From: a virus
DNA: 49,466 nt
Virus record (IMG/VR): IMGVR_UViG_3300046453_000177
Span: 1-49,466 of that record
Strand: one strand, 5' to 3'
The stretch's first letter is position 1. Each line of letters opens with the position of its first letter. Shown piece after piece: positions 2,127 to 41,259 of this stretch. Position numbers and translations under genes: made by a program. The notes under the pieces were generated by a model that had not been told where the DNA came from, did no database searches, and saw only the letters and a program-made list of their open reading frames with translations.

Positions 2127-4607
2127 TCATGTTATTTTTTGCCATTTGCTCACCGAGGTTGACCACCGGAAGGTGATTGTCCCTCCGACCGCTACCGTGG
2201 CTGTCGCTGCAAGTTCGATGTTGCCGCCCGTGACGGTCGTAAATGGCTGCGTAGATGCAACTGCATTGTAGACGGTCAATTTTTGGCCGTCATAAGCGCC
2301 TGGGTTGATATCGGTGATAGAGTTGCCAGCCGCCGAGGCGGTCACGACATAGAATAGCTCAGGGAAGCCGCGATTGGCCGTGTCTACAGTTCGTGTCGCG
2401 CCCGCGCCCCATGATGCTGTCCAGCGGTCCAGCAGCGCGGCAGTCCGCCCCCAATTGACGGTATAGGCCAAGTAGTACGTCGGAGCGCCGCCTAGCCCTG
2501 TTACGGCGGCGGTGGTCGCAATCGATCGGGTCATGTCGGTCAGATTTTGACCTTTGGGGCCGCCCATATAGAACGTTCCGCTCACCCCAACGAAGTCCGC
2601 AAAATAGGAAAGCACCCCGGTCGGGTCCGTGATCTTGCCGCCCTCTATTTCGATGCGAGCAGAAGACGACGTAAGCCGCGCCAGCCTGAGAAGAGTGGCG
2701 GTTGCGCCTGTATAGTCCACATCATGGTTTTTGACGCGGAGAGTGGCGCTGGCGTTCGCTTCGTAGATGCGGCCCTGATTTGTGGCGCCGGCTTGCGGGG
2801 CCAGCGTGCGGCCGCCGTCGATCGTCATATCGCCAAAGGTGACCTCAAAATGAGGCGATGTGTCTGCCCCGCCAAGCACGCGCGGGTTCACAACCTGAAT
2901 GCCTGAAACCAGCCCGCCCGACATACCTACGACATCGAACGCATGGTTTTCCTGGCTGGCGATGTTCGCGGTATACTGACAGTTGATGAAGCTATGATCC
3001 CTGCTGTTATCCGGCGACGCGTAATCAGAGAAGGCGCGAAAGCCAGTCCCGCCATAGCAAGTTGAGTTAATGACGCGATTACGGCGCCCCCGCAACGAGA
3101 AGCCGGTTTGGTTCCCATCTTCACCCCAATATGGCCCTTCGGCGTGACAGCCCATGAAGTCGATGTCCTCGCCATCGTCATGCGCTTCGAAGGCCGCAGC
3201 CTTGCAGTTCACACCTCGGCCGCCAATTACTTTTGTGGCGTAGTTGATCCCATAATTCTCGACAAAGGCGCTATTTGCCCCTGCTACCGTGTTCGCGGAG
3301 CAAGCATAGACATGGCGAACATCGCGGCCGGTCAGCCCCCAATGGCGTCCGCCAAAGCACGCGACCTCATGGACCAGATAGCCGAAGGCGTTGGCCGATA
3401 CGCTCGTGTGCAGATTGTTGCCTTGCAGATCCCGAGTGGTAGGCTCGTAACAACTAAGCAGCCTTACCGCTCTTTCGTTCAAGTCCCGGAAATCGATATT
3501 TTCTAGAACGGGCCGATATAGCCCGATCAGGTCCATAACCCCCGTAGAGCCAGGCACCGTAGAGCATCGCACGATGGCGTTGCGCATCTTAATGCTGACG
3601 CCCCGGTTCATTTTCGCGACGCGGGGATTGGTCGAGTAAGCCATGCGAAGCCGGCTAAATAACGTGATGGTGTTTGCAACGCCGTTGACCTGGGCGATCG
3701 TCGCATATTCGGCACGGCACCGGTTTTTGGTCGGGTCGGTGCCGATGATCTGGTCGTCGGACAGGATTTTGATGACATCCTGCGCTGCATAGACGGAGGC
3801 GTTTGGAACCGTCAGCACCGTCACGTCAGTCAGGGATGCATTGGTCCCGTTAGCGAGATCGATCGAAGTTTGCGCAATTGACGAGATAGCTTGAACATTC
3901 GTGAAGGAAGCCTTCGCGGAGAACCACTTAAAGTCCCCTTGAATGTTAATGGTGGCCCCGTTCCAATCGATATCGACCGACTGATTTGTGAGATTGACCG
4001 GCGACGTGAAGGTGTAAACGTCGCCCTGCTTAGCGACCAGCGGTGCGCCGGTAGCAATTGCCGCCGCCAGGGCCGCAGAATTGTCACTGGCCCCCGTTGT
4101 CAGCCCTATGAACGTCCGCAGTCCCTTGGATGCTAGTTCCGGGCCAAGCGAAGCAGCGGGAAGCGCAGCATTCGCTTTTTCGGCCAACGGACCGATAGCG
4201 GCTTCTCGCGCCTGAGCCTCACTCTGCACCGCACTGCCGATCGCCAAGTTGCGCGCCGTCACCTCGTCCGCAATGGCTGGAGCGACCGCCGCCGCGCCGG
4301 CACTTGCCCCTGCCGCCGCACCGGCGGCGCTACCAGCGCTTGATCCAGCATCAGCGCCCGCCGTCTGACCTGCCGATGCGCCAGCCGCCAAGGCGATCTG
4401 CTCAATCTGATCCGCAGCGCCATCGACAGCGACCGCGCCCAGATAGGCCGCATAAACAGCACTTAGCTGATCGTCGGGCGTGTCGGCAGGGATCAGGCCG
4501 TCAGCGCGGGCTTGGGCGGCCTCGCGGATGCCAGGCGGACCCACGACAGCAGCAGGCGCGACGCCAGCAGACGCGACCTGTGGCACCCATTGCAGCACAA
4601 GCGTCAT
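2127..4607 (-). CDS. Tailspike / tail fibre with beta-helix
   Basis: An 826-residue receptor-binding protein at the promoter-distal end of the structural operon. Residues 1-70 form a virion-attachment region with a PPG element. Residues 74-108 are a low-complexity Ala/Gly/Ser linker (GASAGQTAGADAGSSAG). The central 150-650 region has the short alternating repeats and NGxx turns of a right-handed beta-helix, typical of tailspikes that bind or cleave surface polysaccharide. The last 130 residues (LAYTVNWGRTAALLDRW onward, ending in TFRWSTSVSKWQKIT) look like a C-terminal carbohydrate-binding or trimerisation cap. The enzymatic residues cannot be assigned by eye. The start overlaps the upstream stop by ATGA. 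Confidence 0.8.
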   Translation of the reverse strand: MTLVLQWVPQVASAGVAPAAVVGPPGIREAAQARADGLIPADTPDDQLSAVYAAYLGAVAVDGAADQIEQIALAAGASAGQTAGADAGSSAGSAAGAAAGASAGAAAVAPAIADEVTARNLAIGSAVQSEAQAREAAIGPLAEKANAALPAASLGPELASKGLRTFIGLTTGASDNSAALAAAIATGAPLVAKQGDVYTFTSPVNLTNQSVDIDWNGATINIQGDFKWFSAKASFTNVQAISSIAQTSIDLANGTNASLTDVTVLTVPNASVYAAQDVIKILSDDQIIGTDPTKNRCRAEYATIAQVNGVANTITLFSRLRMAYSTNPRVAKMNRGVSIKMRNAIVRCSTVPGSTGVMDLIGLYRPVLENIDFRDLNERAVRLLSCYEPTTRDLQGNNLHTSVSANAFGYLVHEVACFGGRHWGLTGRDVRHVYACSANTVAGANSAFVENYGINYATKVIGGRGVNCKAAAFEAHDDGEDIDFMGCHAEGPYWGEDGNQTGFSLRGRRNRVINSTCYGGTGFRAFSDYASPDNSRDHSFINCQYTANIASQENHAFDVVGMSGGLVSGIQVVNPRVLGGADTSPHFEVTFGDMTIDGGRTLAPQAGATNQGRIYEANASATLRVKNHDVDYTGATATLLRLARLTSSSARIEIEGGKITDPTGVLSYFADFVGVSGTFYMGGPKGQNLTDMTRSIATTAAVTGLGGAPTYYLAYTVNWGRTAALLDRWTASWGAGATRTVDTANRGFPELFYVVTASAAGNSITDINPGAYDGQKLTVYNAVASTQPFTTVTGGNIELAATATVAVGGTITFRWSTSVSKWQKIT

Positions 4608-35342: not shown

Positions 35343-35485
35343 GCCACATCCCCCTTCATCCACTGCGCCCATTCCCTGGCCCGCCTGCAAAGCTCGACGT
35401 TCTCAGGAAGGGCGCATGCTGCGGCGGCTGCGCGGCGTCGTTCTGCGCGGGTCGGATCAAGGGAGGTGAAGGGTTCAGGCTTCAT
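35339..35485 (-). CDS. Short basic protein (48 aa)
   Basis: MKPEPFTSLDPTRAERRR then an Ala-rich helix, ending REWAQWMKGDVA. ATGA overlap with the upstream methyltransferase stop. No family is recognised, but coupling supports expression. Confidence 0.55.
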   Translation of the reverse strand: MKPEPFTSLDPTRAERRRAAAAACALPENVELCRRAREWAQWMKGDVA

Positions 35486-36168
35486 GCCGCCACCTCCAGC
35501 GACAGCGCAGTGATGCGCTTGCAAGCCGTCTCGAAATGCACCGGGTTCTTCTCGATGCCGACGAACTGGCGGCCAGCTTTGATCGCGGCAACGCCGGTCG
35601 ATCCGGTCCCCATGAAGGGGTCGCAGATAGTGACGCCGCCCACATTGGTGATGATCTTGTCCATCACGGCGTCGGGCTTCACGGTTGGATGACCATAGAG
35701 CCTCGACGGATAGGACTGCGCGCTGATATGCCGGTGCATATCGTGATGCCTGCCAACCGGGTGATAACCCTCATTCCAAGCGTGGATGAAGAACTCCGTG
35801 TCGGCCAGATAATGCTTGTTCCGGTGAGGCGACGGGTTCGGCTTGGTCCAGACGTTGACGCAAACCCGGTGATAATTCCCTGCCAGGTAGGGCAGCAGAT
35901 CGGGAAGCTGGTCGTTGTGGCAGAACACGACCACGCTGGGATGTAGAAGAGGGTTGATGACCGTCTGGTCGAAACCCTGATCCAAACCTTCGGCGACTAT
36001 CTGGTCGGAAGCGCCGCGAGCCTTGCGGAACTCGCCACCGCCCGAATTATCGAACCGATATTGCGGGTCTGTCACCAACGACACGCGGCCCAATGTGGGC
36101 AGGATTTGGTATCCATCCCCCAGATACAGCGTGGCGCCGCCGATGATTTCCTTGCGCTGGTAGGTCAT
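35482..36168 (-). CDS. DNA N6/N4 methyltransferase, variant DPQY motif
   Basis: 228 residues, beta-class order: motif IV comes first, DPQY at 34-37, and motif I last, DPFMGTGSTG at 183-192. Around them are GGEFRKARGASDQIVAEGL, HPSVVVFCHNDQLPDLLPYL and the HPTVKPDAVMDKI block that precedes motif I. The canonical DPPY is changed to DPQY, which should weaken base stacking; activity is therefore uncertain. Start 36168 is fixed by an ATGA overlap. Confidence 0.8.
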   Translation of the reverse strand: MTYQRKEIIGGATLYLGDGYQILPTLGRVSLVTDPQYRFDNSGGGEFRKARGASDQIVAEGLDQGFDQTVINPLLHPSVVVFCHNDQLPDLLPYLAGNYHRVCVNVWTKPNPSPHRNKHYLADTEFFIHAWNEGYHPVGRHHDMHRHISAQSYPSRLYGHPTVKPDAVMDKIITNVGGVTICDPFMGTGSTGVAAIKAGRQFVGIEKNPVHFETACKRITALSLEVAA

Positions 36169-36260
36169 CCAACCCACCCCCGCTTAATAGCGCGCCCAAT
36201 AACGGGACCAGCGAGGAAGGAGAGGGCGAACCAGATGGCGATGATTTGGGGGATGGTCAT
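36165..36260 (-). CDS. Tiny membrane protein (31 aa)
   Basis: MTIPQIIAIWFALSFLAGPV then IGRAIKRGWVG: one transmembrane segment with a positive C-terminus. ATGA overlaps at both ends tie it to the two methyltransferases, so I treat it as real. Function unknown. Confidence 0.6.
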   Translation of the reverse strand: MTIPQIIAIWFALSFLAGPVIGRAIKRGWVG

Positions 36261-36778
36261 GCTGCGGCCCTCCCATGCGCTTCGATCAGGCGTTCTGCCG
36301 GGAAGGCGAGGATGCCCAGACCACAGCGGTACGCGTGGTCAAGCGCGGTCGAACCCTGCGGACCAATCGCTATCAGGGCAGAGCCGTTGGACGGCGACTT
36401 CCCGACCGATCCGTCAGGGCGAAGGAATTTCAGCTTGGGGGTGAACAGGACGGCATCAGCCTTAGCGAACGCGACCTGAAACCATGGCGCCGACGTGCGA
36501 TCAGGAACGAGCGCGATGCCGTTGCCGTGCAGGAAGAAGCGGTCCAACCATGGCTCTAGACTGTTGCGGCCGCCATAGGGCGGGTTCATCCAGACGAACC
36601 CATGCCACGCGCGATGGAGGCTATCGGCGCTGATATTGGCGCGCGCGGGAACGTGCGTCTCCATCGGATATGCCGGGTGTGCGACATCCAAGTCGAACAC
36701 GGTGTTGAGGGCTGCGAAGACGTGAGGCGGGGTGTACCACTCGTCCGACTGGCCCTGCGAAGGCTCCCAATGACTCAC
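36257..36778 (-). CDS. Phage Dam-type N6-adenine methyltransferase
   Basis: 173 residues. YTPPHVFAALNTVFDLDVAH opens the phage Dam family (PF05869). WMNPPYGGRNSLEPWLDRFF holds motif IV, NPPY at 65-68. LVPDRTSAPWFQVAFAKADA and FLRPDGSVGKSPSNGSALIA follow. It is typical in length for phage enzymes. It likely protects phage DNA from restriction or times packaging. ATGA overlaps at both ends. Confidence 0.85.
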   Translation of the reverse strand: MSHWEPSQGQSDEWYTPPHVFAALNTVFDLDVAHPAYPMETHVPARANISADSLHRAWHGFVWMNPPYGGRNSLEPWLDRFFLHGNGIALVPDRTSAPWFQVAFAKADAVLFTPKLKFLRPDGSVGKSPSNGSALIAIGPQGSTALDHAYRCGLGILAFPAERLIEAHGRAAA

Positions 36779-37269
36779 GCCACCGACCTCGGCCGACGAA
36801 GCTGTTCGATCTGCCCCAGCCAGTTGCCCGTCGCGCCGTGCAGCTGCCGGATCAGCAATTCCATGCCCAGCAGTTCAGTATGCACAACCGCCCGACCACC
36901 GGGGCTTTCGGGATGCTCAGCCTCTTGCAGCTTCACCATCAACCGGGCGATCAGCAGCGATGCGTCGTCGGTGTCGCAAACCGCGTCCTGATCGACCAGG
37001 CGCTTGCCCTTTTCGCGCAGATACTCGTCCAGCACGGTCGGGCAGGCGTCCAGAGCAGCGTCGATGCAGTCGAAGCCCGGCATGGAGCCGACAAGCTGTT
37101 TATCGAGCGCAGGACCGGACACGCCGATCGCATCTGCGAACCGACCCTTGCCCAGCTTTGCGATAGCGCGCGTCCATCCCTGCATGAGCAGCGAGTGCAA
37201 CTGCGGTTTGCTCAACGGTTGCCGTTTCGAAACGACCGTATCGTCATTGTGCTGCATTGCGGCATCCAT
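36775..37269 (-). CDS. Putative regulatory HTH protein (164 aa)
   Basis: From MDAAMQHNDDT. The core LSKPQLHSLLMQGWTRAIAK and GRFADAIGVSGPALDKQLVG is an HTH-like segment (FADAIGVSGPALDKQ). The C-terminal part is a helical region LLIARLMVKLQEAEHPESPG. It resembles CII-type or toxin-antitoxin-like regulators of phages; assignment is by pattern. The start could be 37269 or MQHN at 37257. Confidence 0.55.
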   Translation of the reverse strand: MDAAMQHNDDTVVSKRQPLSKPQLHSLLMQGWTRAIAKLGKGRFADAIGVSGPALDKQLVGSMPGFDCIDAALDACPTVLDEYLREKGKRLVDQDAVCDTDDASLLIARLMVKLQEAEHPESPGGRAVVHTELLGMELLIRQLHGATGNWLGQIEQLRRPRSVA

Positions 37270-37519
37270 GATTGAGGTTGAAAACATCAGCGCCGGGCGA
37301 GCGGCTATCCACTTTGCGCCCGGCGCTGGCCTGGGGTTGCGACCCAGCAGACATGGGGAGGAAGTTGGCGTTGGTGCGGCTGACAAGCTGGCCAGCATCG
37401 ACCTCCGCGACCGTGCGATAGTTCGCGAAATCGATCGGCCGTTGACGCCAGACGCGGGTGCCGTCTGCGTTGAAGCGGACGAGGGTGGCGCCAGGATGAT
37501 TGGGGAGGTGGTTGGGCAT
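37244..37519 (-). CDS. Hypothetical protein (91 aa)
   Basis: Three bp after the C5 methyltransferase stop and overlapping the next gene by 26 bp. The N-terminus (NHPGATLVRFNADGTRVWRQ) is beta-like, while the C-terminal half is polar. No family or motif. Kept because the spacing fits the operon, with low certainty. Confidence 0.4.
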   Translation of the reverse strand: MPNHLPNHPGATLVRFNADGTRVWRQRPIDFANYRTVAEVDAGQLVSRTNANFLPMSAGSQPQASAGRKVDSRSPGADVFNLNHGCRNAAQ

Positions 37520-37522
37520 GTT

Positions 37523-38278
37523 CTAGGCCGCCTGGCGCATCGAATTGAGGATGGCGCGGCCGATCGCTTCCGGGATCTGCGGAACTACGGCGTTTCCATA
37601 TTGTCCGATGCGGGCTCGTTCCATTGTGACGGAAAACCCATGATCAGAGCATATGCCTGTGAGATCGCCCGCCAGGACACGCCTCGCTCCAGCAAACGGG
37701 TCGCTGCTGAAGGTTGGTGTCTCTGCCGCGAAGCGAGATGCGCCGAAGTGCTCGAAACATCCTTGCCGTCCCGAGCATTGGGGGACGGCAAGTATCCATA
37801 CACGGTCCCTGATGATGGGCGCGCCAACGAACGCCGCTGGAATGCAGTCCCAGACAGCATCATACCCGACCGAGGCCAACGAACCGAGAACTTCTCCAAG
37901 CCCTCGATCCAGCAGCTCTGCAACGTTCTCCACGATGACGTAGCTGGGTCGAAGTTCGCCAACCAAGCGGGCGAACTCAAACCACAGTCCGCTGCGGCTG
38001 CCATGCAGGCCAGCCCCCAGGCCGGATATGCTGATGTCTTGGCAAGGGAAGCCTCCGCAGATGACATCGACCTCAATGGATCTAGCAGCCAAAGCGCTTG
38101 CGGTGAGACCGCAGACATCAGGGAAGCATGGCACGGATGGCCAATGCTTTCTGAGTGTGGCTCGGCTTCGTTCGTCGATCTCGCAGAAAGCGACGGTCTC
38201 GAAACCGCCAGTGCGTTCAAGTCCAAGGCTAAATCCTCCAATGCCGCTGAAAAGGTCGAGAACACGGAGCTTTTCCAT
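37523..38278 (-). CDS. DNA C5-cytosine methyltransferase (Dcm type)
   Basis: 251 residues, a complete but compact C5 enzyme: motif I DLFSGIGG (8-15), motif IV GGFPCQ with catalytic Cys79, motif VI ENV (117-119), motif VIII RDRVWILA, and motif X GNAVVP (about 228). The target-recognition region is short. Protection against restriction is the common phage role. A second long frame overlaps the whole gene. Confidence 0.9.
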   Translation of the reverse strand: MEKLRVLDLFSGIGGFSLGLERTGGFETVAFCEIDERSRATLRKHWPSVPCFPDVCGLTASALAARSIEVDVICGGFPCQDISISGLGAGLHGSRSGLWFEFARLVGELRPSYVIVENVAELLDRGLGEVLGSLASVGYDAVWDCIPAAFVGAPIIRDRVWILAVPQCSGRQGCFEHFGASRFAAETPTFSSDPFAGARRVLAGDLTGICSDHGFSVTMERARIGQYGNAVVPQIPEAIGRAILNSMRQAA

Positions 38279-39082: not shown

Positions 39083-39111
39083 ACTATAAGTGTGTCGAAA
39101 CACACCGTCAA
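39083..39111 (-). promoter_or_regulatory. Leftward early promoter with operator in its spacer
   Basis: On the minus strand: -35 TTGACG (39111-39106), a 17-bp spacer, -10 TATAGT (39088-39083). The spacer is filled by the palindrome at 39090-39105. Confidence 0.75.
39090..39105. promoter_or_regulatory. Repressor operator, GTGTGT-N4-ACACAC
   Basis: Perfect 6-bp arms around a 4-bp centre. A weaker copy (GTGTGTCG and a broken second arm) follows at about 39113-39126. Confidence 0.75.
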
Positions 39112-39149: not shown

Positions 39150-39163
39150 GTGTGATAACACAC
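39150..39163. promoter_or_regulatory. Operator at the cI start, GTGTG-N4-CACAC
   Basis: A palindrome ending 2 bp before the cI ATG. It overlaps a plausible -10 (GATAAC with TG before it), so CI probably controls its own synthesis. The cI transcript may begin at or near the ATG. Confidence 0.6.
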
Positions 39164-39165
39164 AC

Positions 39166-39906
39166 ATGACTAAACAGGCTTTCCCCATTGATGCAGTGCG
39201 TGATTCGATACGTCGAATGATGGATGAGCGCGGCGATAAGGCGAAGCCACTGGCGATCGGCCTGGGTCTGAGCGAGACGGGCATCCGCGATATTTTTTTG
39301 GATAAGACGAAAAGCGTCGGCGGCCCCAAATTGTCAGTGATCGCGCGGTATTACGGGGTGACTGTGGACGATATCATGGCTGGTACCGCCACAACCGTCG
39401 GTCGGTCGGAGCGGCCCAAGGCAAACGGCAGGCCGGTAGAGTTTGAGGGCGCCTCACTCGCCGAAGTGCGGAACGATCTGCCTGTGTTCGGGACAGCGCT
39501 GGGAGCGGAGGTGTTGGTGGACGGTGAGCGGATCGAGCAAACCACGCTCAACACCGGCGATATCATCGAATACCGCAAGCGTCCGCCGGTCAGCCACGGC
39601 GTGGAAAAGGTCTATGGTCTCTATGTGCAGGGTGCCAGCATGTATCCGGCCCACCGCGACGGCGCTTTCCTTTTCGTCCAGCGTGACGCCCGCTTGCGCG
39701 TCGATGACGATGTTGTGGTCTATCTGCGCCCCAAGGATGAAAGCGACGACGGCGAACGTGCTGCATGCGTGCTTGTGAAGCGCCTGGTTAAGCGGTCAGC
39801 GCAGTTTGTTGAGCTGGAGCAATACAACCCGGCCAAGGTGTTTCGCATCGACATGAAGGATGTCTTGCAGATCGATCGCGTGCTGACGGCGGACGATTAT
39901 ACCTGA
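39166..39906 (+). CDS. cI: CI-like repressor, LexA/S24 type
   Basis: 246 residues. N-terminal HTH: LAIGLGLSETGIRDIFLDKT, then SVGGPKLSVIARYYGVTVDD. The C-terminal S24 peptidase-like domain has the putative cleavage region VFGTALGAEV, catalytic Ser158 in YVQGASMYP, and Lys205 in VLVKRLVKR, so it should self-cleave with activated RecA. It would hold the palindromes on both sides of the region. The start at 39166 is placed just after the operator; longer readings from 39037 pass through the operator sequence. Confidence 0.85.
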   Translation: MTKQAFPIDAVRDSIRRMMDERGDKAKPLAIGLGLSETGIRDIFLDKTKSVGGPKLSVIARYYGVTVDDIMAGTATTVGRSERPKANGRPVEFEGASLAEVRNDLPVFGTALGAEVLVDGERIEQTTLNTGDIIEYRKRPPVSHGVEKVYGLYVQGASMYPAHRDGAFLFVQRDARLRVDDDVVVYLRPKDESDDGERAACVLVKRLVKRSAQFVELEQYNPAKVFRIDMKDVLQIDRVLTADDYT

Positions 39907-39944
39907 CGGGCAGGGTGTAAGCTGGGGATAAGTGGGATGAGCGC

Positions 39945-40409
39945 TTGAACGCGGACGAGGTCGACCGATTTCTGCAGTACGGGCGCCGAACGTTGCCAGC
40001 GTCACCCGACTGGCGCGTTGGCAACAGGACCGGCGAGCGGCGATCCTCGTTACCGGTTTCTTTGGACGGCAGATCGACACCGGTAACTCTTGAAATCACG
40101 GTCAGATTGCTTGAGCCAGACTATCTGATGTTGCTGCTGCTGGCCGATCGATCGGTGTTCTGCCGCCTTTGTATGACTACCGGTCATATGGATCGGGCAG
40201 GCAAGCAACTGGTGAACCAAGCTCATTTCCATAGCTGGGAAGCGAACAGGGCCGGCCTCAAGAATATTCCTAAGAAATTGAATCAGATAGAGATTGTGCC
40301 GCCTGATATCGCCAGGCGAGACGACGCATTAAGCTGGTTTTTACAACGCAATGGTATAGAATCTCCAAGCTGGTTTCCCCCAGCATGGCCACACGGGCAG
40401 CTAATTTAA
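39945..40409 (+). CDS. Rex-position protein 1 (DUF6978-like, 154 aa)
   Basis: Follows cI by 38 bp in the same orientation, from TTG 39945. VTLEITVRLLEPDYLMLLLL is followed by VFCRLCMTTGHMDRAGKQLV and AHFHSWEANRAGLKNIPKKL, then DDALSWFLQRNGIESPSW. The HFH-x-W segment and final FLQRNGI recall DUF6978 proteins, which often pair with DUF1828 proteins; the match is weak. Expressed with the repressor, it would be on in the lysogen. Function unknown. Confidence 0.5.
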   Translation: MNADEVDRFLQYGRRTLPASPDWRVGNRTGERRSSLPVSLDGRSTPVTLEITVRLLEPDYLMLLLLADRSVFCRLCMTTGHMDRAGKQLVNQAHFHSWEANRAGLKNIPKKLNQIEIVPPDIARRDDALSWFLQRNGIESPSWFPPAWPHGQLI

Positions 40410-41131
40410 TGGACTGGAAAAGCGTCAAGACAGCTATATGCGAAGGGCGGCGGTTCACCGAAACCGCTGACGGCTGTAGCGTTGTGTCCGACACACTGAT
40501 GCCTTCGGGAGGGGTTATCAAAGTTCATTTCGTGGCAAAAACAGATCACTTGATGGCGCACGATGGCGGCGCTGCTTTCGACGAACTGGCCCGCCACGCC
40601 GTCGAAATTTCCAGCCTTCGCGGCGTTCGACGGATGCTTGCTGAAACCAATTTCAATCTAAACGATGACGGGACTGTTTGGCGCGATCGGTTCAAGATCG
40701 AAGAGGCCCCAATTGCTGTAGCACTAATTGCTGACGCGTCGGTTCGGGCCGCGGCCTATATGATGGCCAAAGGCAAAGTACGAGGCGGGGCGCCACTCGA
40801 CCAAAGACTGCGCGACGAATTGCGGCGGAGATTTCCTGACGGGCACCCGAACTATGAGTTCGCCGGCAAGCATCGTCAGCATCGGTTTGATTTCGGCATG
40901 CAGGATGGGGATCGGACGATCCTTGTTCAATCCGTCAGCCCGGAGCAGTCGTCCATCGCTTCCGCCATTCTGAAGGGACTGGACGCGAAAGCGGAAGGGT
41001 CGAACGTAGTGCCTATTTTCGTTTTCGACCGCCATGACAGATGGTCATCTGGATCACTGGGGATGCTCGACCTCGGGGGGCGGAGCATGGAGATCGATGC
41101 AGCCCTCAGTGGACAACTGCTCGCCGCCTGA
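40409..41131 (+). CDS. Rex-position protein 2 (DUF1828/DUF1829-like)
   Basis: Starts MDWKSVKTAICEGRRF by TAATG overlap with protein 1. The N-terminal FTETADGCSVVSDTLMPSGG and VHFVAKTDHLMAHDGGAAFD match the DUF1828 pattern (a beta sandwich with DDG-like loop). The C-terminal HRFDFGMQDGDRTILVQSVS and VVPIFVFDRHDRWSSGSLGM resembles DUF1829. A terminator 30 bp downstream closes the unit, so it is probably co-transcribed with cI. I suggest a defence or exclusion role by position only. Confidence 0.55.
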   Translation: MDWKSVKTAICEGRRFTETADGCSVVSDTLMPSGGVIKVHFVAKTDHLMAHDGGAAFDELARHAVEISSLRGVRRMLAETNFNLNDDGTVWRDRFKIEEAPIAVALIADASVRAAAYMMAKGKVRGGAPLDQRLRDELRRRFPDGHPNYEFAGKHRQHRFDFGMQDGDRTILVQSVSPEQSSIASAILKGLDAKAEGSNVVPIFVFDRHDRWSSGSLGMLDLGGRSMEIDAALSGQLLAA

Positions 41132-41160
41132 CCCAAGTTTTCAACTACCAAAATATTTGA

Positions 41161-41190
41161 CCCCGCCCGATCCGTCGCGGCGGGGTTTTT
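41161..41190 (+). terminator. Intrinsic terminator of the cI operon
   Basis: CCCCGCC and GGCGGGG pair around an 11-nt loop and are followed by five T. It separates the lysogenic unit from the rightward early promoter. Confidence 0.85.
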
Positions 41191-41207: not shown

Positions 41208-41259
41208 GTGTGTCGCGCCACACTTTGTGCTTGACGGTGTGTCCTAACACACTTTATAC
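41208..41259 (+). promoter_or_regulatory. Rightward early promoter with two operators
   Basis: -35 TTGACG (41231-41236), 17-bp spacer, -10 TTATAC (41254-41259). The spacer holds GTGTGT-N4-ACACAC (41237-41252). A second, slightly weaker operator, GTGTGTCG...CCACAC, lies at 41208-41223. Confidence 0.75.

Follow-up and report, generated by a model that had tools for sequence, protein, structure and literature searches.

A divergent relative of the PDC-M24 gene pair in the immunity region of a viral genome: a likely anti-phage module

PDC-M24 is a candidate system of PADLOC-DB 2.0.0 that comprises two protein families, PDC-M24A and PDC-M24B. The PDC entries are the output of a guilt-by-embedding screen and are mostly unvalidated (PMC12988326); for PDC-M24 neither a validation nor a mention was found in the literature searched, and it stands as a catalogue entry. 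HipAD/DS-6 (DefensePredictor) is a validated two-gene defence system, proposed to be of the toxin-antitoxin type, in which a HipA-like kinase is partnered by a DUF3037-DUF1829 protein predicted to bind both the kinase and DNA (PMC13092281). It provides the closest experimental support for DUF1829 proteins partnering toxins in defence. In TumE-TumA a small alpha/beta toxin that contains an HxH motif is coupled to a partner (PMC10584680). Lambda RexAB, a two-gene prophage system situated in the slot beside the repressor, serves as the precedent for phage exclusion, and a RexAB-type system of Pseudomonas putida is an example of two prophage genes acting together through growth arrest (PMC12894663).

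In the current analysis a gene pair from a viral genome (IMG/VR record IMGVR_UViG_3300046453_000177, positions 1 to 49,466; this whole stretch of 49,466 bases is referred to as the window) has been compared with these systems. The pair has in common with PDC-M24 the two families, the gene order and the frequent overlap of the genes; relatives of both genes match the PDC-M24 models and occur both in phages and in defence clusters. It differs in that the window proteins themselves lie below detection and belong to a divergent sphingomonad clade with 11-18% identity to most viral members. Like HipAD/DS-6 it has two genes, one of them related to DUF1829, but it is devoid of a kinase, and the second protein of HipAD/DS-6 also carries DUF3037. 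Unlike the RexAB-type systems of lambda and Pseudomonas putida it has no membrane effector, and its families are unrelated to theirs. The HxH motif and the coupled partner are reminiscent of TumE-TumA. Kinship with TumE was considered and is not supported by the profiles: gene 1 does not match Pfam PF20126 and scores 0.1% in hhalign, and DUF6978 against TumE reaches 0.4-1.2%, which is not significant. A weak match to TumE (E 0.0028) is seen for the DUF6978 protein of the virus Humcor1, and a sequence search of the PDB found no TumE structure.

Layout and exchange of the cassette

An earlier note on this DNA had described two genes joined by TAATG that follow a repressor and are closed by a terminator before the early right promoter, as in the rex slot of lambda. 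These elements are present exactly as described, and the position is indeed shared with rexAB. The features are as follows.

39090..39105, no strand: operator 1, palindromic GTGTGTCGAAACACAC, upstream of the repressor (exact match)
39150..39165, no strand: operator 2, abutting the repressor start codon (1 mismatch)
39166..39906, plus strand: CI-like repressor with HTH and S24 peptidase-like domain (Pfam/PHROG matches)
39945..40409, plus strand: gene 1, DUF6978-like / PDC-M24A-like, 154 residues, TTG start at 39945, TAA stop (open frame, hhalign, AF2)
40164..40232, plus strand: codons of the invariant residues R74, H81, H94 and H96 of gene 1 (alignment of 32 sequences)
40407..40411, plus strand: TAATG stop/start overlap of genes 1 and 2, translational coupling (sequence, relatives)
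40409..41131, plus strand: gene 2, DUF1828/1829-like / PDC-M24B-like, 240 residues, two domains, ATG start at 40409 (hhalign, AF2)
40409..40780, plus strand: N-terminal domain of gene 2 (residues 1-124), YbjN / type III secretion chaperone-like (VIA-align)
40787..41128, plus strand: C-terminal domain of gene 2 (residues 127-240), PD-(D/E)XK-like without (D/E)xK (VIA-align, alignment)
41159..41187, plus strand: intrinsic terminator at the cassette end, GC-rich hairpin with U tract (-21.3 kcal/mol, z -2.75)
41208..41252, no strand: operator pair (41208-41223, 41237-41252) at the early right promoter region (palindrome scan)

The repressor, which matches HTH_26 (E 7e-5), Peptidase_S24 (E 3e-5) and phrog_4 (E 5e-16), is separated from gene 1 by 38 bp on the same strand. 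Four palindromic GTGTGTYNNNACACAC-like operators (39090, 39150, 41208 and 41237) flank the repressor and the cassette; the motif has 9 strand matches against 0.67 expected, a count reached in none of 100 shuffles. The terminator hairpin, equalled by 3 of 200 shuffles, is conserved between the window and the prophage of Sphingobium sp. TCM1 (L005), and beyond the operators at 41208 and 41237 come the early genes read rightwards, among them YqaJ and RecT. This layout makes the repressor and the cassette one operator-flanked, terminator-closed unit on a single strand. No forward promoter was found between the repressor and gene 1 in a scan that covered sigma-70 consensus sites only. The cassette is probably transcribed together with the repressor in the lysogen, with the repressor as its driver. 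The overlapping stop and start recur in relatives of the pair, as TGATG in L001 and as TAATG in L005 and in the Caenibius plasmid L002.

To the left of the repressor, on the minus strand (35482-38278), three DNA methyltransferase genes are encoded (N6_N4_Mtase, E 9e-15; Dam, E 8e-11; C5 cytosine methylase, E 1e-39). They are likely to be a self-methylation or anti-restriction cluster.

The cassette is exchanged between otherwise similar genomes. The DNA of the window and of L005 is 77-79% identical over the repressor and recombination genes, and the blastn match ends at 39936 and restarts at 41161, a little beyond either end of the cassette. The flanking proteins are 79-83% identical (repressor 82.5%, recombination genes 79-80%), whereas those of the cassette share 35% (gene 1) and 43% (gene 2). 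Conversely, L001 has an unrelated repressor that gives no meaningful alignment, yet it carries the closest cassette, with 60% and 64% amino acid identity. These two comparisons show that the cassette is exchanged as one block, whichever repressor it stands behind. Such swapping is typical of variable cargo like exclusion or defence genes and does not sit easily with a regulator specific to the repressor.

Family identity and distribution

Neither product has an above-threshold match in Pfam, PHROGs, NCBIfam or PADLOC. Gene 1 has no Pfam match, either to DUF6978 (PF22398; cut-off 29.6 bits) or to any other family; gene 2 scores 13.1 bits (E 0.14) against DUF1829 (PF08862), below the cut-off of 22.2 bits, and does not match DUF1828 (PF08861; cut-off 22 bits). 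Profile-profile comparison (hhalign) relates gene 1 to a clean DUF6978 set (93.5%, E 2.3e-7) and gene 2 to DUF1828/1829 (97.3%, E 1.6e-11). When repeated with viral members only, the comparison gave 93.2% (E 3e-7) for gene 1, with a viral set of 28 members, and 78.7% (E 1.7e-5) for gene 2. Reversed alignments and gene 1 against gene 2, used as controls, score 0.1-0.2%. A previous test of the gene 1 profile, with a mixed and badly aligned comparison set, had given only 4%. The family names put forward in the earlier note are therefore right as remote homology only (E 2e-7 and E 2e-11 in round figures), and gene 1 is best described as a remote DUF6978 relative outside the Pfam family proper. Searches of PDB sequences with the gene profiles gave nothing convincing, and direct tblastn with the window proteins found no match in named phages.

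Five homologous pairs were assembled, namely those of the window, L001, L002, L003 and L005. The nearest relatives of the window are in sphingomonads, in the Sphingobium sp. TCM1 prophage and the Caenibius plasmid. The window proteins do not match the PADLOC profiles PDC-M24A and PDC-M24B directly; in profile-profile comparison gene 1 is strongly linked to DUF6978/PDC-M24A members. PDC-M24B is reached directly by the gene 2 homologues of L005 (E 3e-5; 43% identical to window gene 2) and L002 (E 1.3e-3), and both models are matched by DUF6978/DUF1828 proteins of other bacteria and phages. The two genes of the window are adjacent on one strand, in the A-then-B order of PDC-M24. The assignment of the pair to a divergent branch of this catalogued but unvalidated family is well supported by these comparisons, and the pair is not wholly undescribed. 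The earlier note had proposed an undescribed prophage-encoded defence or immunity system; the slot, the coupling, the families and the co-occurrence behind that proposal hold, and the word undescribed is too strong since relatives are catalogued as PDC-M24A/B and DUF1829 is found in HipAD/DS-6 (PMC13092281).

Among these relatives, the gene 1 homologue of L003 (L003:3984-4448) is interrupted in frame by a stop at 4412, ahead of the conserved C-terminal tail. Plasmid p1 of Caenibius sp. WL carries gene 1 without annotation (L002:7534-8001). No repressor lies directly upstream of the cassette there, and an HTH gene is encoded by the other strand 0.7 kb downstream; this plasmid may be a phage-plasmid.

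Two scans with gene 2 alignments alone gathered 48 IMG/VR loci. A lack of co-occurrence in other prophages had been named by the earlier note as grounds for dropping its proposal; a DUF6978 HMM match is found directly upstream of gene 2 in 47 of the 48. These 47 pairs comprise at least 40 distinct gene 2 sequences and include L063, whose copy is N-terminally short, and L082, whose copy is split into two frames. The open frames upstream of viral pairs (63 scanned) include 22 that match Peptidase_S24 and 22 that match HTH_3. The synteny recurs, exactly or nearly so, in named phages that infect Lactobacillus, Staphylococcus, Streptococcus and Pseudomonas. Javan197 and Javan642 have repressor, DUF6978, DUF1828 and integrase in succession; in phage 37, phiSP119-3, Lj965 and MissF this series is interrupted by a single small gene or a few of them, and Pseudomonas phage 5371 has cro, cI, a small open frame, DUF6978 and DUF1828. 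In the Lactobacillus prophage Lj965 a gene annotated as 'superinfection exclusion' (L040:4520-5044) lies between the pair and the integrase, which supports an exclusion-gene slot. The archaeal Halorubrum virus Humcor1 (L049:2498-2914) also carries DUF6978 and DUF1828.

The distance matrices of the two genes are correlated with r = 0.97 (n = 32; 0 of 2000 permutations), as would be expected for a co-inherited unit, and this value is not in itself proof of a complex. When viral structure models were searched, the top matches of both window proteins came from a single phage, Siphoviridae ctRg81: its DUF1828 protein for gene 2 (E 2e-12) and another of its proteins for gene 1 (E 4e-3). The pair is thus recovered independently by fold. 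It is a real and phylogenetically broad two-gene module.

In bacterial chromosomes both families are uncommon. DUF1828 is present in 10 of 398 Pseudomonadota genomes and DUF6978 above the cut-off in 2 of the 398, and a small DUF6978-type gene nearly always precedes DUF1828 where the latter occurs. Defence genes occur in the neighbourhoods: type I HsdS and HsdR flank the pair in L025 and type IIG enzymes adjoin it in L030 and L031, while L032 is close to PDC-M59A and PDC-S18 genes and L029 to a reverse transcriptase. In L028 the DUF1828 gene is situated between BrxC and PglX and is preceded by a short open frame only. The neighbours in L036 are ordinary chromosomal genes, and the defence context is therefore not universal. 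The restriction operon of L025 also encodes, between the pair and HsdR, a 265-residue protein without PADLOC match (L025:7021-7818). Loci discarded during the analysis were L011/L038 (a chance match within an oxidoreductase-like gene), L009/L039 (a fragment only) and L014/L027 (a spurious DUF6978 match).

Predicted folds and conserved residues

As the earlier note had suggested, structures were predicted and compared with known folds. AlphaFold2, supplied with the window proteins and their relatives, gave confident models of both. Gene 1 (pLDDT 91.3, pTM 0.87) is predicted to be a small alpha/beta protein. No PDB chain at Z >= 5 was found among the 1000 highest-ranked by Foldseek, a result that does not of itself show a novel fold. 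Across 32 sequences, mostly 11-18% identical to the window protein, R74, H81, H94 and H96 are the sole invariant columns, and the position of D83 is occupied by N in 30 of the 32. The four residues look like an active site; given the lack of a PDB match at this level, it is their conservation that suggests an enzyme. In the DUF6978 proteins of the Streptococcus phages Javan197 (L045:2478-2948) and Javan642 (L046:2431-2901) the HxH is replaced (GNRINIF), and these proteins are possibly inactive or altered.

Gene 2 has a pLDDT of 91.1 and a pTM of 0.55, the latter as expected for two domains of loose mutual orientation. In VIA-align its N-terminal domain resembles 8q8o (Z 10.0, rmsd 3.1, 116 residues aligned), 4h5b (9.4), CesT (5wez, 8.8) and Spa15 (2xga, 8.6), and its C-terminal domain Can2 (7bdv, 8.9), VC1899 (8.7), PspGI (8.4) and EndoMS (8.3). 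The alpha-beta-beta-beta-alpha-beta core of the PD-(D/E)XK fold is recognised in the C-terminal domain at Z 8-9 over about 107 residues with fitting element order. The Z values are close to the middling range of the tool and are strengthened by the recurrence of many members of one fold class on each half. All 34 sequences compared keep an acidic residue at D131 and at D161, and none of the 34 has (D/E)xK on the third core strand (169-175), which carries hydrophobic or QSV/DAV/KTM/FGV-type residues instead. With the acidic residues retained and this motif missing, the domain gives the impression of a nuclease fold that has degenerated and kept binding alone.

Proposed function and significance

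Some anti-phage or exclusion role for the pair is likely, and it probably protects the infected cell as a defence or toxin-antitoxin-like module. We give about even chances to the specific reading of the pair as a divergent PDC-M24 member, an exchangeable and lysogen-expressed cargo of the immunity region in which a toxic gene 1 product is held by a phage-sensing gene 2 product. From the folds and the conserved residues we infer a division of labour. Gene 1 would be a small enzyme, toxic if free and perhaps acting on RNA, with Arg/His/His/His as its active site. The chaperone-like N-terminal domain of gene 2 would grip and silence it in a complex, while the C-terminal domain, which lacks the usual catalytic motif, would serve as the sensor by binding nucleic acid or a phage product. 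The complex would be disturbed by a second phage, and the freed gene 1 product would shut down the cell before that phage multiplies. Points that count against this reading are the lack of a PDB fold match for gene 1, the loss of HxH in the two Javan phages and the location of L036 outside a defence cluster. It is a more tentative suggestion that the pair represents a new class of two-component defence, in which an unseen enzyme fold is restrained by a chaperone-like domain fused to a dead-nuclease sensor, in the same immunity slot of temperate phages of Bacillota and Pseudomonadota.

The roles of the two genes could be reversed, with the C-terminal domain of gene 2 as an unusual active nuclease. 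A defence module in which gene 2 is a phage-activated, non-canonical PD-(D/E)XK effector and gene 1 a regulator or signal-processing enzyme would agree with the resemblance of that domain to active defence nucleases (Can2) and restriction enzymes and with its two acidic positions; it is rendered unlikely by the third core strand and by the strictest conservation, of active-site-like residues, residing in gene 1. An addiction module, stabilising the prophage without useful protection against other phages, is a more doubtful explanation still. The two small overlapping genes, their tight co-inheritance and the partnership of DUF1829 with the HipA kinase speak for it, but the chromosomal copies within restriction-modification and BREX neighbourhoods suggest defence and not maintenance alone.

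Lower again we place an accessory of lysogeny control that tunes the repressor or the integration decisions of its own phage. Many phages do place the pair between the repressor and the integrase or early promoter, and regulators occur among YbjN-like proteins; against this, related cassettes stand behind unrelated repressors and different cassettes behind the same repressor, and the cassette also adjoins restriction-modification and BREX genes where phage genes are absent. True homology to lambda RexA and RexB, for which the position is the one argument, is given next to no credence and is rejected here: RexB-type effectors are membrane proteins (PMC12894663), whereas both models are soluble alpha/beta folds at pLDDT 91 with no membrane helices, and DUF6978 and DUF1828/1829 are unrelated to the families of RexAB.

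The preferred reading of a restrained toxic enzyme with a phage sensor provides, through the predicted architecture of a chaperone-like domain, a dead nuclease fold and a small putative enzyme, a testable mechanism for a catalogue entry hitherto without one. The window pair also reveals that the current defence models miss divergent branches. The occurrence of the module in one slot by the repressor in lactobacillus, staphylococcus, streptococcus and pseudomonad phages, and in restriction-modification and BREX neighbourhoods, suggests that it is likely to be among the commoner unrecognised prophage defences.
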